This document shows, in pieces, positions 24,904 to 30,199 of a DNA stretch of 41,424 nucleotides. The stretch is from assembly GCA_020725175.1 (NCBI GenBank), contig DYFM01000011.1, positions 896-42,319 on the forward strand. The letters are read 5' to 3'. The position numbers were made by a program, and so were the translations under genes. Numbering within the stretch: position 1 is the first letter of the stretch; every line of letters begins with the position of its first letter. The notes beneath the pieces were generated by a model, which made no database searches, was not told the DNA's origin, and saw nothing but the letters and a program-made list of their open reading frames with translations. The DNA is from Candidatus Paceibacter sp. (GTDB taxonomy: Bacteria; Patescibacteriota; Patescibacteriia; Magasanikbacterales; UBA922).

Positions 24904-26931
24904 CTATTGAAAAATAATCTTTCTTACTTTTCGCTCTTCTGAATATACTTCAAGTACATCTCCCACTTCAATCCTTGTCTTTCCTTCAAATCGAAGTCCG
25001 CATTCTGTTCCGCTCGGTACTTCTTTCACTGATTGCTTTCCGGTTTGGCACTCCACCAATTTGCCGGCACCAATGATTTCCCCATCTCGCTTCACCCGAA
25101 TTTGTGCGCCTTTGGCAATTTTTCCGTTTTCCACTCGCCCGCCCACAGTCATAGCTCCTTTTTCTGTTCGGAAAATAGCCAGCACCTTGAGATTCCCGAG
25201 TTCATGGACAATAATTTCAACATCAAGCATTTTCTCAAGTTCGTCTTTGACCCAATTGATCAAATCATAAATCACCGTATAATGCTTGAACGGAATATTT
25301 TTTTCACGCATATCTTCTTCCGCCAACGGAGTTGGATTTACATGAAACCCGATGACGGTTGCGTCCGCTGCCTCAGCCTTATGGACATCATCTTCATTGA
25401 TATTTCCCAAACCTTTACCCACAATACTCACTCCCACCTCATCGTGCTTAATTTTTGATAAAGAACCAATAATCGCTTCTAATGAACCCAACACATCAGC
25501 TTTAATTACCAAATTCATCATTTTTTTACCACCTTCATCTTCGTCGTTTGCGTTTGACTCCACTACATAAGTTTTTTCGGCTCCGGTCTGTTGGGTTTTC
25601 TTTTGTTTAATATCAATTTTTGAAGCCCCAGAAGCACTGCCAATATCCATAATATCTCCCACTTCCGGCGCAACCTTAAATCCGATTATCTGTACCGGTA
25701 CCGATGGTCCAGCCGATTCTACCGGAGAGCCGGTGTAATCTTTCATCGCGCGTACTTTTCCATAAATTTCTTTATTGACTACCAAAGGATCACCAAGCTT
25801 CAGAGTTCCAGCTTGCACCAATACTGTAGCCACCGGCCCCATTCCTTTATCTACATGAGATTCAATAATAGTTCCAACAGCCGGAATAGTCGCGTCAGCT
25901 TTAATAGTTTCTTCGTTCATGTCAGCCACCAAGAGCAACACATCCAACAACTTATCAATGTTGATATTTGATTTAGCAGAAATTTCCACCATAGGAACGT
26001 CTCCACCCCACTCTTCCGGAATAATATTTCGCTGTGAAAGTTCGGTCTTTACTCGTTGCACATCAGCGGTTTCTTTGTCAATTTTGTTGATTGTCACCAC
26101 AAACGGCAACTTGGCAGCACGGATGATCTGAATAACTTCTTCGGTTTGTGGCTTTACCCCGTCATCAGCAGCTACCACAAGAATGGCAATGTCCGCGACT
26201 TTTGCCCCACGACTTCGCATGACAGTAAACGCCTCGTGTCCCGGTGTATCAATAAATGACAAGGCTCGCTCAGCACCGGACTTTGGATCTTTCCAGACGG
26301 TCTGGTAGGCACCAATGTGCTGGGTAATGCCGCCCGATTCTTTATCGATAATATTCGTATGACGAATCGTATCAAGGAGTTTGGTTTTTCCATGATCTAC
26401 GTGCCCCATGACGACAATTACCGGCGCACGTTGCTCTTTGTTTACTGATTTTTTCAAAGCTTCTTCCAATACTTCCCCCTGTTCATCTTGCTTATCAGTC
26501 TCCTCTGAATCACCATCAAGTTTTTGCACACCAAAACCAAGTTCATTTCCAATGATAGAAGCAGTGTCAAAATCAATATTTTGATTTTGGTTGGCAAGAA
26601 TACCGTTTTTCATGAGTTCCATCATCACTTGCGTCACAGGCAATTCCATTTTTTCAGCAAATTCTCGGACGGTAATAATATGTGGAATCAAAATGGTTTT
26701 CCCGGATTCGCGCCGCAATTCTCGTTCTTTTTGTTTCCGCTCTTCTTGCTCTTGTTGACGTTTGAGCTCTAAATCACGTTTGATAAATTTCCATTTTTTT
26801 ATCACTTGCTGTGCTGTTCGATCATCAATTTTGATCGCTTTTTGCCCAATATCAAAACCGTACTGCGGTAAAATTTCAAGTAAAACTTTGGTATTGGTAC
26901 GAAGTTGTCGGGCGAGTTCAGTAACGTTCAT
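24904..26931 (-). CDS. infB: Translation initiation factor IF-2
   Basis: This GTPase places fMet-tRNA on the ribosome and joins the subunits. It is 675 residues with a short N-terminal part. An IF2-N motif ([10 protein letters not shown]) and a charged linker precede a second IF2-N-like segment (about 84-130). The G domain has GHVDHGKT (176-183), DTPGHE and NKID, followed by domains II-IV. I chose the ATG at 26931 because the open frame above it (MIKIASES onwards) is leader sequence made of iterated words. A consensus promoter lies about 90 bases upstream. Confidence 0.97.
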
Positions 26932-26976
26932 ATGGCAAGTGGCAAGCAGCAAGGAGCAAAAAACAAGTGACAATAA
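26931..26976. repeat. Iterated words in the infB leader
   Basis: ATGGCAAGTGGCAAGCAGCA and AGGAGCAAAAAACAAGTGAC follow each other. The same words occur in frame inside metG and uvrA. Confidence 0.65.
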
Positions 26977-27019
26977 GCTCTCGCTAGCGATTTTAATCAA
27001 AAATAAGCAGTTTTAGGTC

Positions 27020-27048
27020 ATTATAGAGGTTTTTAGCCATATTGTCAA
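27020..27048 (-). promoter_or_regulatory. Consensus sigma70 promoter of infB
   Basis: On the minus strand, TTGACA (27043-27048), a 17-base spacer and TATAAT (27020-27025) match the consensus perfectly. The leader to the infB ATG is about 80 bases. Confidence 0.85.
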
Positions 27049-27145
27049 TCCGCCCACAGCAATCACAAGATGGATAGATACTGTGGAACGTTATTTGTAT
27101 AGGTTTATCTACAGTAGAGCTATTTATAAAATTAATTTCTAGGTG

Positions 27146-27310
27146 TAATATTGATAAGCTCACTGAGATGCGGGTCTCAATGAGTAGCCCGTTGGGTCTG
27201 AAGCAGTTTTTTCCCGGCACGGAAGAAATTGTTGACGACCCACCGGGCATTCACATTCCTATATTTTTCCAGATCCTGCTCAAGGGTCTTTTTTTGAGCA
27301 TTTTCGTTTA
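27146..27310 (+). ncRNA. Predicted structured RNA, unit 0 of the array
   Basis: A weak promoter (TAATAT at 27146-27151) leads into two hairpins. The first is 27159-27184, with arms of 10 bp and one mismatch. The second is a long imperfect hairpin at 27187-27248, whose inner stem closes only if G-U pairs on the plus strand are allowed. A terminator-like stem (27277-27283 with 27294-27300) and a T-run end it. The G-U pattern favours a plus-strand RNA. There is no convincing ORF. I do not recognise the RNA family. Confidence 0.5.
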
Positions 27311-27319
27311 GTAATAAAG

Positions 27320-27328
27320 TTATCCACA
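27320..27328 (+). promoter_or_regulatory. DnaA-box-like 9-mer TTATCCACA
   Basis: Exact match between RNA units 0 and 1, just upstream of the unit 1 promoter. Confidence 0.4.
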
Positions 27329-27336
27329 GAATACTA

Positions 27337-27538
27337 TTGACTTTTTTTTCATTATGGTGTATTTTCTGTTTTGTCAGCTGTGGTATGGCGAGGGTTTTCC
27401 CCCGGCCCTTGCCCCCCAGCTGACAATAAATCCGCCTGGCGGATTCCTCCAATCGAGCTCTCATGAGCTCCTTGTGACGGAATCCGCCAGGCACCCCAAC
27501 AAACCTGATAAATAAAATCCTAACCAAGGATTTTTTTG
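27337..27538 (+). ncRNA. Predicted structured RNA, unit 1 of the array
   Basis: TTGACT (27337) and TATTTT (27360) are spaced by 17 bases, giving a start near 27372. A hairpin at 27373-27424 has GTCAGCTG/CAGCTGAC outer arms and an inner stem with one G-U pair. A second hairpin has perfect 14-bp arms (27434-27447 and 27479-27492) and an internal GAGCTC-TCAT-GAGCTC stem. A 7-bp terminator (27515-27533) with a T-run ends the unit. It is about 165 bases long and encodes no plausible protein. Confidence 0.6.
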
Positions 27539-27602
27539 TATTTTCTTTTTTCAGCCTTTATCACACCGAACCTGTTTCGACATAATATGTTTTAAAGTAA
27601 TA

Positions 27603-27745
27603 TTGACAAAAACGTTTTTTTTTTGCTTTTATTCTTTTGTTCCGACCGTACCAAAACTCCTGCAACGGTGCAGGAGGGATGGCCTCGCAACGGTTGGGAC
27701 AACCTGGCTGCGGGGTAGACTAACTTCCTCACCCCGCAGCCCTCA
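27603..27745 (+). ncRNA. Predicted structured RNA, unit 2 of the array
   Basis: TTGACA (27603-27608) is followed by a T-rich spacer and TTTTAT. The RNA would start near 27640. Stems are a perfect 8 bp at 27657-27676 with loop ACGG, GGTTG/CAACC at 27692-27704, and a perfect 10 bp at 27706-27741. The bases ACCGT at about 27645 can pair with the ACGGT of the first loop, giving a possible pseudoknot. No U-tract follows the last stem, so the end is uncertain. Confidence 0.45.
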
Positions 27746-27769
27746 CACACATAAAAATAACTAAAAAAC

Positions 27770-27989
27770 TTGACAAATCCCCTCATTTGTTTTAAAAAGT
27801 GCCTGGCGGCAATCTCCTCCTCAGTACAGCACCGGGGTGTGACAGCTACGGCTGTACTGAGGAAAGATTGGAGAACAGTTCTCTATCCGGGGGCGGAAAC
27901 ATTAAAAGGAGAATACCCCCGATACCGCCACGCCCAAAACATCAAACACCCTCCATGTACACAATTCTGAAGGGTGTTTTATTTTTTAT
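27770..27989 (+). ncRNA. Predicted structured RNA, unit 3 of the array
   Basis: TTGACA (27770-27775) and TAAAAA (27793-27798) are spaced by 17 bases, giving a start near 27805. A long hairpin has 21-base arms (27810-27830 and 27851-27870) with a small internal loop. Two further stems follow: GAGAAC/GTTCTC and a GGGGG/CCCCC stem. A perfect 9-bp terminator (27944-27952 with 27971-27979) and a T-run close it. The length of about 180 bases is like 6S RNA, but I see no diagnostic 6S features. Confidence 0.6.
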
Positions 27990-27995
27990 CAGATT

Positions 27996-28164
27996 TGCTA
28001 TACTACACCTGTACCTGCCACGGTGGGCACTCGCTCCTGAGTGACAGCCAGCCACCGTGGCAGGTACACAAAACACGGCCAGCGAAGAATCTCTCTCCTT
28101 TTCTTCGCCGGCCACTTCCATTCTTTAATTGAACACAACCAACCTCATTCCGGTTGGTTTTTTT
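27996..28164 (+). ncRNA. Predicted structured RNA, unit 4 of the array
   Basis: An extended -10 (TGCTATACT, 27996-28004) precedes a perfect 16-bp hairpin (28011-28026 and 28052-28067) with an inner CACTC/GAGTG stem. A second 13-bp stem with one mismatch follows (28077-28089 and 28101-28113). An 8-bp terminator (28137-28144 with 28152-28159) and a T-run end the unit. No protein is encoded. Confidence 0.6.
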
Positions 28165-28171
28165 ATCCACA
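28163..28171 (+). promoter_or_regulatory. DnaA-box-like 9-mer TTATCCACA
   Basis: Exact match between the terminator of RNA unit 4 and the promoter of unit 5. Confidence 0.4.
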
Positions 28172-28178
28172 AGAACCC

Positions 28179-28336
28179 TTGACAAAAATATTATTTTCAT
28201 ACAATTCGATTTTTGAAGGAGAATCGCTTGTTCTCGAGCGCTGGATCCACGACTAATATACTTCCGCCTCACCCCCACAGTGCCCACCCTCCCTAATTCT
28301 AATTGAAGAACAGTTCTGAAGCTGTTTTTTTTTATT
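28179..28336 (+). ncRNA. Predicted small transcript, unit 5, with possible 22-codon ORF
   Basis: TTGACA (28179-28184) and TACAAT (28200-28205) are spaced by only 15 bases. A short terminator (AACAG/CTGTT, 28309-28326) with a long T-run ends the unit. Inside, AAGGAG (28216-28221) lies six bases before a TTG codon that opens a 22-residue frame (28228-28296) rich in Pro, His and Ser. It may be a leader peptide, a small protein or chance. Confidence 0.45.
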
Positions 28337-28375
28337 AAAATGTTTATATAGGGTTTATAAAAAAGAAATCATACC

Positions 28376-29020
28376 TTAACCATACCTCTCCACATACTCC
28401 TCCACTCTCTTCCGAATCGCAAACTCATTTTCCTCTAAACTCGCATCACTCGTCGCAAACATCACCACCCCCGGCAATACAGTCTGCCAGATCGGGTTCG
28501 CCGGTTCATCGATAATATTTTTGACATACGACGTTACAATACCAATATCACCCTCTGTCGTAGAAACAGTTACAAACGGCACTTGGTCTCTCAGAAGCTT
28601 TTGGTTTGGGAGACCTATCTCCACCCGAGAAATAGACTCCCATGGCGTCATCGACACCACTTCTCCCGTACGATACATGAGATACTCATTGGTAAACAGC
28701 AAAAAGACGTTGTTTCCCATCCGCCAGGCTTTGAGTTTTTGTGCCCCACGCAACAGAAGAATAAAAGCCGGGAGTAAGAGCAAAAGAATCAATAACCATT
28801 TGTTTCTCGAAATCTGCCCCCACATCCACACAAACAAAAACAAGAACGCCGCTCCAGCTACCAGTCGATATAGCCCCCATAAAAACTGCTGCCAACTCGC
28901 TTTGGCTGGGATATAGTGAAACCCTTCTTTATACGCTTCGTGCTTTGGCTTGAGCGCGACCAACTTCACATCATTTGGTAATTCGGAAATTCTTTTTTGT
29001 AAATATACTTGTTCGATCAT
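28376..29020 (-). CDS. Membrane protein with PH-like domain
   Basis: This 214-residue protein has a short cytoplasmic start and two membrane helices (about residues 50-68 and 74-90, with LYRLVAGAAFLFLFVWMW and LLILLLLLPAFILLL). A beta-rich domain resembling bacterial PH domains follows (FLLFTNEYLMYRTGEVVSMTPW, then ISRVEIG). I chose the ATG at 29020 over the TTG three codons upstream. The function is unknown; such proteins are thought to sense or scaffold at membranes. It lies downstream of the terminator of the next gene, so it needs its own promoter. Confidence 0.7.
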   Translation of the reverse strand: MIEQVYLQKRISELPNDVKLVALKPKHEAYKEGFHYIPAKASWQQFLWGLYRLVAGAAFLFLFVWMWGQISRNKWLLILLLLLPAFILLLRGAQKLKAWRMGNNVFLLFTNEYLMYRTGEVVSMTPWESISRVEIGLPNQKLLRDQVPFVTVSTTEGDIGIVTSYVKNIIDEPANPIWQTVLPGVVMFATSDASLEENEFAIRKRVEEYVERYG

Positions 29021-29109
29021 AATGTACAAGGTAAATATGTTTCTAGTATAAAAGAAAAATTTGTTTTATACAAATAGGTAATTATTAATGTACCGTGCTT
29101 GCTCATACT

Positions 29110-29162
29110 AGTAATAGAATCCATAAAAATCAGTTCAATCCGTTTAATCCGCGGTCTATTTT
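29110..29162. repeat. Half copy of the fmt-downstream array
   Basis: TTCAATCCGTTTAATCCGCGGTCTATTTT matches the second half of the array at 21895-21925 in words and order, 7 kb away. Confidence 0.6.
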
Positions 29163-29190
29163 AAATTAAGATATATACTTCTTCATAAAT

Positions 29191-29227
29191 AAAAAAACAT
29201 TCTCCTGATTATAGAGAATGTTTTTTT
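29191..29227 (-). terminator. Intrinsic terminator after the small PH-like gene
   Basis: Perfect 14-bp arms (29191-29204 and 29214-29227) with flanking A and T runs let it work in both directions. Confidence 0.8.
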
Positions 29228-29665: not shown

Positions 29666-30199
29666 TTATGAAGACGGAAATTTTTCTCGATATAATTCAA
29701 CTGATTTTTTTACTGCTTGCAAAGCTTGTTCTCTTCCTTCATATCCTTCCACAGTCACCACATCACCTTTCAACTGCTTATAGGTTTCAAAATAATGTTG
29801 CAATTCTTTCAATGTATGTGGATTTACATCCGCAATGTCATTGACATGATCCCAGCGCTTGTCTTTCACCGGCACAGCAATCACCTTATAATCCGATTCG
29901 CCACTGTCGATCATTTTCATTACTGCTACCGGTCGCACTTTTACCAAAATTCCGGTTTGTAATGGATGAGTAGTCAAGACAATTACATCCAGTGCATCCC
30001 CATCTTCCCAAAGTGTTTGCGGTGCAAAACCATAGTCACACGGATACGAAGCCGCGCTGTAATTTACCCGATCAAGCGCGATAAGTCCGGTTTCTTTATC
30101 AATTTCATACTTATTATTGGAAAACTTGGGAATTTCAATGATTACATTGAATTCTTCCGGAGACTTGTCCCCGAGAGTGACGTCATGCCAGAGGTTCAT
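29666..30199 (-). CDS. ppa: Inorganic pyrophosphatase
   Basis: This is a family I soluble pyrophosphatase that hydrolyses the PPi released in biosynthesis. It is 177 residues, normal length. Conserved parts are IEIPKFSNNKYEIDKETG, NYSAASYPCDYGFAPQT, GDALDVIVL with metal-binding Asp residues, and the late DVNPHTLKELQHYFETYKQLK. It is followed by a gene for a small PH-like protein. Confidence 0.96.
   Translation of the reverse strand: MNLWHDVTLGDKSPEEFNVIIEIPKFSNNKYEIDKETGLIALDRVNYSAASYPCDYGFAPQTLWEDGDALDVIVLTTHPLQTGILVKVRPVAVMKMIDSGESDYKVIAVPVKDKRWDHVNDIADVNPHTLKELQHYFETYKQLKGDVVTVEGYEGREQALQAVKKSVELYREKFPSS

Follow-up and report, generated by a model that had tools for sequence, protein, structure and literature searches.

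The stretch of DNA analysed here (the window; 41,424 nt, C22:896–42319 of a 98% complete Magasanikbacteria-type MAG of 1.24 Mb) contains an array of tandem structured units on the + strand (27146–28336). It is flanked by infB and by a membrane-protein gene specific to the lineage, where a first-pass annotation had placed it. The array is probably a cluster of five, perhaps six, independent sRNA genes, whose products would be stable, work independently of Hfq and act via their loops, their linkers or a bound protein. That the units are tandem, independent, structured and apparently non-coding transcription units is well supported, and the best reading of the cluster is that it was recently gained, or is evolving fast, in a variable spot between infB and ppa.

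Anatomy of the units

All six units are on the + strand. Unit 0 has, as the first-pass annotation had anticipated, a weak promoter (27123–27151; TTTATA at 27123, 17 nt, and TAATAT at 27146–27151), with a score of 6.4 that is equalled by 4% of random intergenic positions. Its predicted RNA (27158–27300; z −6.6, −62 kcal/mol) consists of a small hairpin, one long interrupted hairpin and a U-tract terminator at approximately 27271–27296. Unit 1 is preceded by TTGACT-17-TATTTT (27337–27365), and its RNA (27371–27538; z −10.6, −85.6 kcal/mol) contains hairpin A (27371–27426), hairpin B (27434–27492, 14 bp perfect), a linker and an AU-rich terminator (27515–27537, AAATCC..GGATTTTTTT). For unit 2, the promoter TTGACA-18-TTTTAT (27603–27632), which carries the TG of a weak extended −10, is followed by an RNA (27637–27750; z −6.8) of two hairpins, A (27637–27702) and B (27706–27741), lacking a U-tract as noted originally, and the transcript may read through into unit 3.

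Unit 3 combines a TTGACA-17-TAAAAA promoter (27770–27798) with a multibranched RNA (27801–27988; z −4.6) that includes a 13-bp stem (27818–27863) and ends at 27988 in a long-looped terminator (ACACCC..GGGTGTTTTATTTTTT). Unit 4 was likewise credited at first with a promoter, hairpins and a terminator, as were units 1 and 3; this was confirmed for all three, but the promoter of unit 4 is an extended −10 (TTTGCTATACT, 27999–28004) with a poor −35. Its RNA (28010–28166; z −9.8) is formed by hairpin A (28010–28068, 17 bp perfect), hairpin B (28077–28113) and a terminator (28137–28165, AACCAACC..GGTTGGTTTTTTT). Unit 5 (28208–28336) follows TTGACA-15-TACAAT (28179–28205) and is a C-rich, little structured candidate transcript, with a Shine–Dalgarno-led ORF of 22 codons (28228–28296, TTG start) and a terminator at approximately 28305–28335 that may be shared with, or serve, the convergent gene. 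Thus U-tract terminators end units 0, 1, 3, 4 and 5; their quality is good in unit 4 and fair in unit 0, while that of unit 5 is AU-rich like that of unit 1, and those of units 1, 3 and 5 fail a stricter terminator scan.

Folding, promoter registration and coding potential

Compared with 200 dinucleotide shuffles per unit, units 0–4 fold far better than expected (z −4.6 to −10.6), with 56–66% of their bases paired at 49–61% GC. Unit 5 is not significantly structured in the same analysis (z −1.1), so that the original count of five to six structured RNAs holds for units 0–4. The long perfect stems, first described as reaching 14–16 bp, are indeed present and measure 17, 14, 13 and 11 bp. In the own genome, which was examined in stretches totalling 1.237 Mb, perfect stems (at least 10 bp, at least 6 GC, loop of at most 50) occur at a rate of 0.10 per 1,250 bp, and the array holds four of them within 634 bp. 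It is the sole non-coding cluster of at least three such stems in the 1.24-Mb genome, the other hairpin clusters lying inside GC-rich protein genes. The sense and antisense strands of the array fold equally overall (−372 compared with −369 kcal/mol), and thus folding alone cannot favour RNA over palindromes in DNA.

Such hairpin-rich genes raise the possibility, which we consider unlikely but worth setting out, that the array represents the non-coding portion, or one that has lost its coding, of a broader class of very stable, hyper-structured transcripts. This class would comprise GC-rich genes and membrane micro-ORFs in which selection keeps the coding RNA nearly fully paired. ORFs of the own genome with 58–70% GC gave windowed folding z-scores of −7.4 to −14.8 against synonymous-codon shuffles, compared with −2.1 to +2.2 for 40 control ORFs, and excess structure (z −2.8 to −4.7) was likewise seen in the + strand antiporter-like cargo that relatives carry at the infB spot. 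The genome further contains hydrophobic, Shine–Dalgarno-led micro-ORFs of 15–44 aa made largely of perfect hairpins (L097 18318, − strand, 30 aa; L115 ~2497, − strand, 44 aa; L111 12898, − strand, 33 aa; L064 17974, + strand, 38 aa; L100 1053, + strand, 15 aa), three of which gave individual synonymous-shuffle z-scores of −2.9 to −4.6. The sense strand folded better than the antisense strand in eight out of eight GC-rich genes and micro-ORFs tested, as expected if selection acts on RNA. Against inclusion of the array, units 0–4 have no Shine–Dalgarno-led ORF and are less GC-rich than the hyper-structured genes; the array also has no overall sense-strand bias, and for this reason its membership of the class can be proposed only tentatively. 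A broader and equally doubtful proposal is that Magasanikbacteria-type bacteria keep hyper-structured transcripts (non-coding RNA clusters like the array, membrane micro-ORFs and larger GC-rich genes) in which whole-transcript pairing from +1 is itself selected, for example in RNAs that persist through long dormant or host-dependent phases. Should the array belong to this class, a transcript-stability strategy would be visible at the codon level.

The hyper-structured GC-rich genes of the own genome are located at L124 2010–2876, L126 11711–12274 and 16211–17305, L088 1–1176 and L120 278–925, one of them being collagen-like and one NUDIX.

What speaks most strongly for RNA genes is the registration between promoters and stems. 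In each of units 0–4, the first paired base lies 2–6 nt past a sigma70-like −10 box, which is the expected transcription start. The mean promoter score at the five + strand stem starts was 8.9, compared with 1.6 (S.D. 2.8) at random intergenic positions, and none of 100,000 random draws reached this mean, a caveat being that the sigma70 model behind the score is borrowed from E. coli. GC-rich stems next to AT-rich spacers may inflate the score, but minus-strand stems, whose surroundings are similar, show no such inflation, their starts having ordinary promoter scores. Around the array (26500–29200, both strands) there are 12 promoter-like sites compared with 5.5±2.5 expected, and eight terminator-like sites compared with 2.5±1.6. 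It counts against the reading that, across non-coding DNA generally, TTGACW with a terminator after it was only weakly enriched (25 compared with 15.6±5.9). Taken together with the folding, the terminators and the coding scores given below, the registration agrees with the initial proposal of independent transcription units side by side, from which we infer that the units are transcribed.

This registration also bears on the notion that the hairpins are DNA-level palindromes, either REP-like or mutational quasi-palindromes, with promoters and terminators present by chance. Intergenic palindromes are numerous in the genome and the equal folding of the two strands would suit such an origin, yet we judge it improbable, as the array stems are unlike one another and do not recur in the rest of the genome, promoters and stems are in register on one strand only, and the U-tracts are on the + strand. 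REP/BIME repeats were rejected, because a comparison of the array with its own genome gave self-matches and a single promoter/T-run match only. Long imperfect intergenic palindromes elsewhere in the genome (L091 6401, L114 5501, L106 19501, L131 16101 and L082 4401) are built of short near-repeats such as ATAGACCGCGGATTTAACGGATG and GTACGAACATACGAAC, several copies of which are related.

Coding potential was scored with a codon model trained on 448 long host ORFs; all array ORFs of at least 25 aa scored between −12 and +1.9, that is, without host-like coding, in a model that misses genuine GC-rich genes and is thus indecisive alone. The view that no unit encodes a protein of normal size stood, with the qualification of the ORF in unit 5. 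The units are very unlikely to be genes for tiny proteins or type I toxin–antitoxin loci, for which the ORF of unit 5 and the hyper-structured micro-ORFs elsewhere in the genome might speak, since units 0–4 lack Shine–Dalgarno/start pairs and any small hydrophobic ORF, the array ORFs score as non-coding, minus-strand stem starts have no promoter and the unit 5 peptide is not hydrophobic.

For the preferred reading, a cluster of sRNA genes, we propose that a separate sigma70-type promoter would drive + strand transcription of each structured unit, with the first stem at or beside +1 giving a closed 5′ end and a largely double-stranded RNA, and that the transcripts, unit 2 excepted, would end at an intrinsic terminator. 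Heavily paired RNAs with the 5′ end inside a stem are expected to resist decay, and the array RNAs would likewise be long-lived. Their most likely role would be Hfq-independent regulation, in which either the hairpin loops and short unpaired linkers or a bound protein would make the contacts.

Genomic neighbourhood, relatives and candidate partners

The array lies upstream of infB on the opposite strand. infB (translation initiation factor IF-2; 24904–26931, − strand) is its divergent neighbour, with a consensus promoter at 27048–27020 (− strand); the protein is 62–75% identical with IF-2 of family relatives and its best named matches are from Candidatus Magasanikbacteria. On the other side, the array is convergent with the membrane-protein ORF (217 aa; 28376–29029, − strand), for which no relative was found among 46 family genomes, and beyond it follows the inorganic pyrophosphatase gene ppa (29666–30199, − strand). 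A number of relatives also have ppa close to infB, with varying cargo between the two: a spacer of only ~110 bp (L036 and L164), a NUDIX-like gene, as read from sequence alone (L147), or antiporter-like genes preceded by a structured leader (L028, L029 and L032). The array was seen in none of the relatives in which the region upstream of infB was examined.

The leader upstream of the antiporter-like genes in the infB–ppa spot is conserved and structured, with the core GCCGTTCATTACAATACAGGCAAAAACTTTTTTGA (L153 3664–3900; L154 3499–3735; L157 1372–1136, − strand; L159 4051–4287). Seven predicted pairs were changed on both sides across the four sequences, and the leader had no match in Rfam.

BLAST analysis of the array against phages, plasmids, 46 genomes of the family and 86 of the order revealed no DNA relative, the short family matches (22–50 nt) having weak E-values; nor was an exact array hairpin found in viral contigs. 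A covariance model of unit 4 returned two weak matches in the 46 genomes, both spurious, one of them at a coding region/ordinary terminator. No Rfam family matched the array at gathering or permissive thresholds, the best sub-threshold matches (22 bits compared with 50) looking like chance, in agreement with the earlier impression that no known RNA family was recognizable. The array therefore appears restricted to its species as far as sampling goes, the genus sample being one species. As had been remarked at the outset, each unit has its own sequence; only promoter-like and 16-nt fragments are common to units, and no common motif or partner gene or protein was found for them.

No Hfq was detected in the genome by a search that finds it in control genomes. 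The unpaired linkers paired with translation starts (crude gene starts) no better than shuffled linkers did, and trans-acting sRNAs that occlude Shine–Dalgarno sequences were therefore rejected as a description of the array. Pairing between units was near the shuffle level for 14 of the 15 pairs (z +1.6 to −2.2); the sole outlier was units 1 and 2 (z −3.3), compared with −4.5 for a control pair. We suggest that the lack of Hfq, of target enrichment in the linkers and of clear mutual pairing, together with the closed 5′ ends and the high pairing of the RNAs, points to stable, Hfq-independent sRNAs. The first-pass annotation had gone further in suggesting an undescribed RNA system, which we do not uphold, as the units share neither sequence nor partner protein nor demonstrable targets and have no homologue in the 86 order genomes. 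In a reduced genome that lacks Hfq, a cluster of unrelated genes for strongly folded RNAs would mean that these cells maintain their own regulatory or structural RNAs, encoded in spots that change quickly.

Other RNA-like elements were observed in these genomes. A conserved two-RNA module consists of a TTGACA-promoted RNA with a terminator, followed by a tRNA-like gene with its own promoter; blocks within the upstream RNA are antisense to that gene's D/anticodon region. It is present in the own genome (L088 1680–1900 and 2090–2310, + strand; L105 3356–3137, − strand) and in others (L178 13810–13260, − strand, in G029; L190–L201 in seven genomes). The tRNA-like pattern GGTGGA..GGTTCRA..TCCACC gave 12 matches in seven of the 46 family genomes and none when reversed as a control; in 11 of the 12, upstream antisense blocks of at least 8 nt were found, their sequence varying with complementarity kept. 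A further own-genome (G000) tRNA-like copy (L088 1826–1898) was called tRNA-Arg GCG. The array itself has no T-arm or acceptor sequence and is unlikely to be a module of this kind. Separately, L066 7945–8260 (+ strand) is a structured, apparently non-coding candidate transcript of ~280 nt with a consensus promoter, a terminator and no Rfam match, and L112 12323–12480 (+ strand) is an isolated structured sRNA-like unit with a promoter, a closing-stem terminator and no notable ORF.

Comparison with known small RNA systems

Literature searches yielded no work on small RNAs in Patescibacteria, and the array was compared with systems described elsewhere. Sib/Ibs and Ldr/Rdl are type I toxin–antitoxin arrays of tandem small structured RNA genes. 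The array resembles them in this respect, but units 0–4 have no hydrophobic toxin ORF and there are no antisense promoters. TIGR-Tas consists of a repeat array and a Nop-domain Tas protein (PMC12045711). Like TIGR and CRISPR arrays, the present array would provide tandem small RNAs in a reduced or parasitic bacterium; unlike them, it has no repeats, and no Nop-domain/Tas protein was found in the genome.

Sibling sRNAs, such as NgncR_162/163 of Neisseria, the LhrC family of Listeria and AbcR, are multicopy small RNA genes that share targets; NgncR_162/163 are adjacent, 78% identical and bind Hfq (PMC9973317). The array is similar in having several small RNA genes, adjacent as in Neisseria, and differs in that its units have no common sequence, and hence not the high identity between members typical of siblings, and in that its genome has no detected Hfq. 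Tandem sRNA genes as such are already known elsewhere. Units other than 2 and 5 show the own promoter, predicted structured non-coding transcript and intrinsic terminator of bacterial intergenic sRNA genes. Orphan bacterial sRNAs are species-restricted and intergenic. The array units are like them in being intergenic, 110–190 nt long and narrowly distributed, with their own promoter and terminator, and are set apart from them by five to six lying side by side, each opening with a stem at +1 and very strongly paired.
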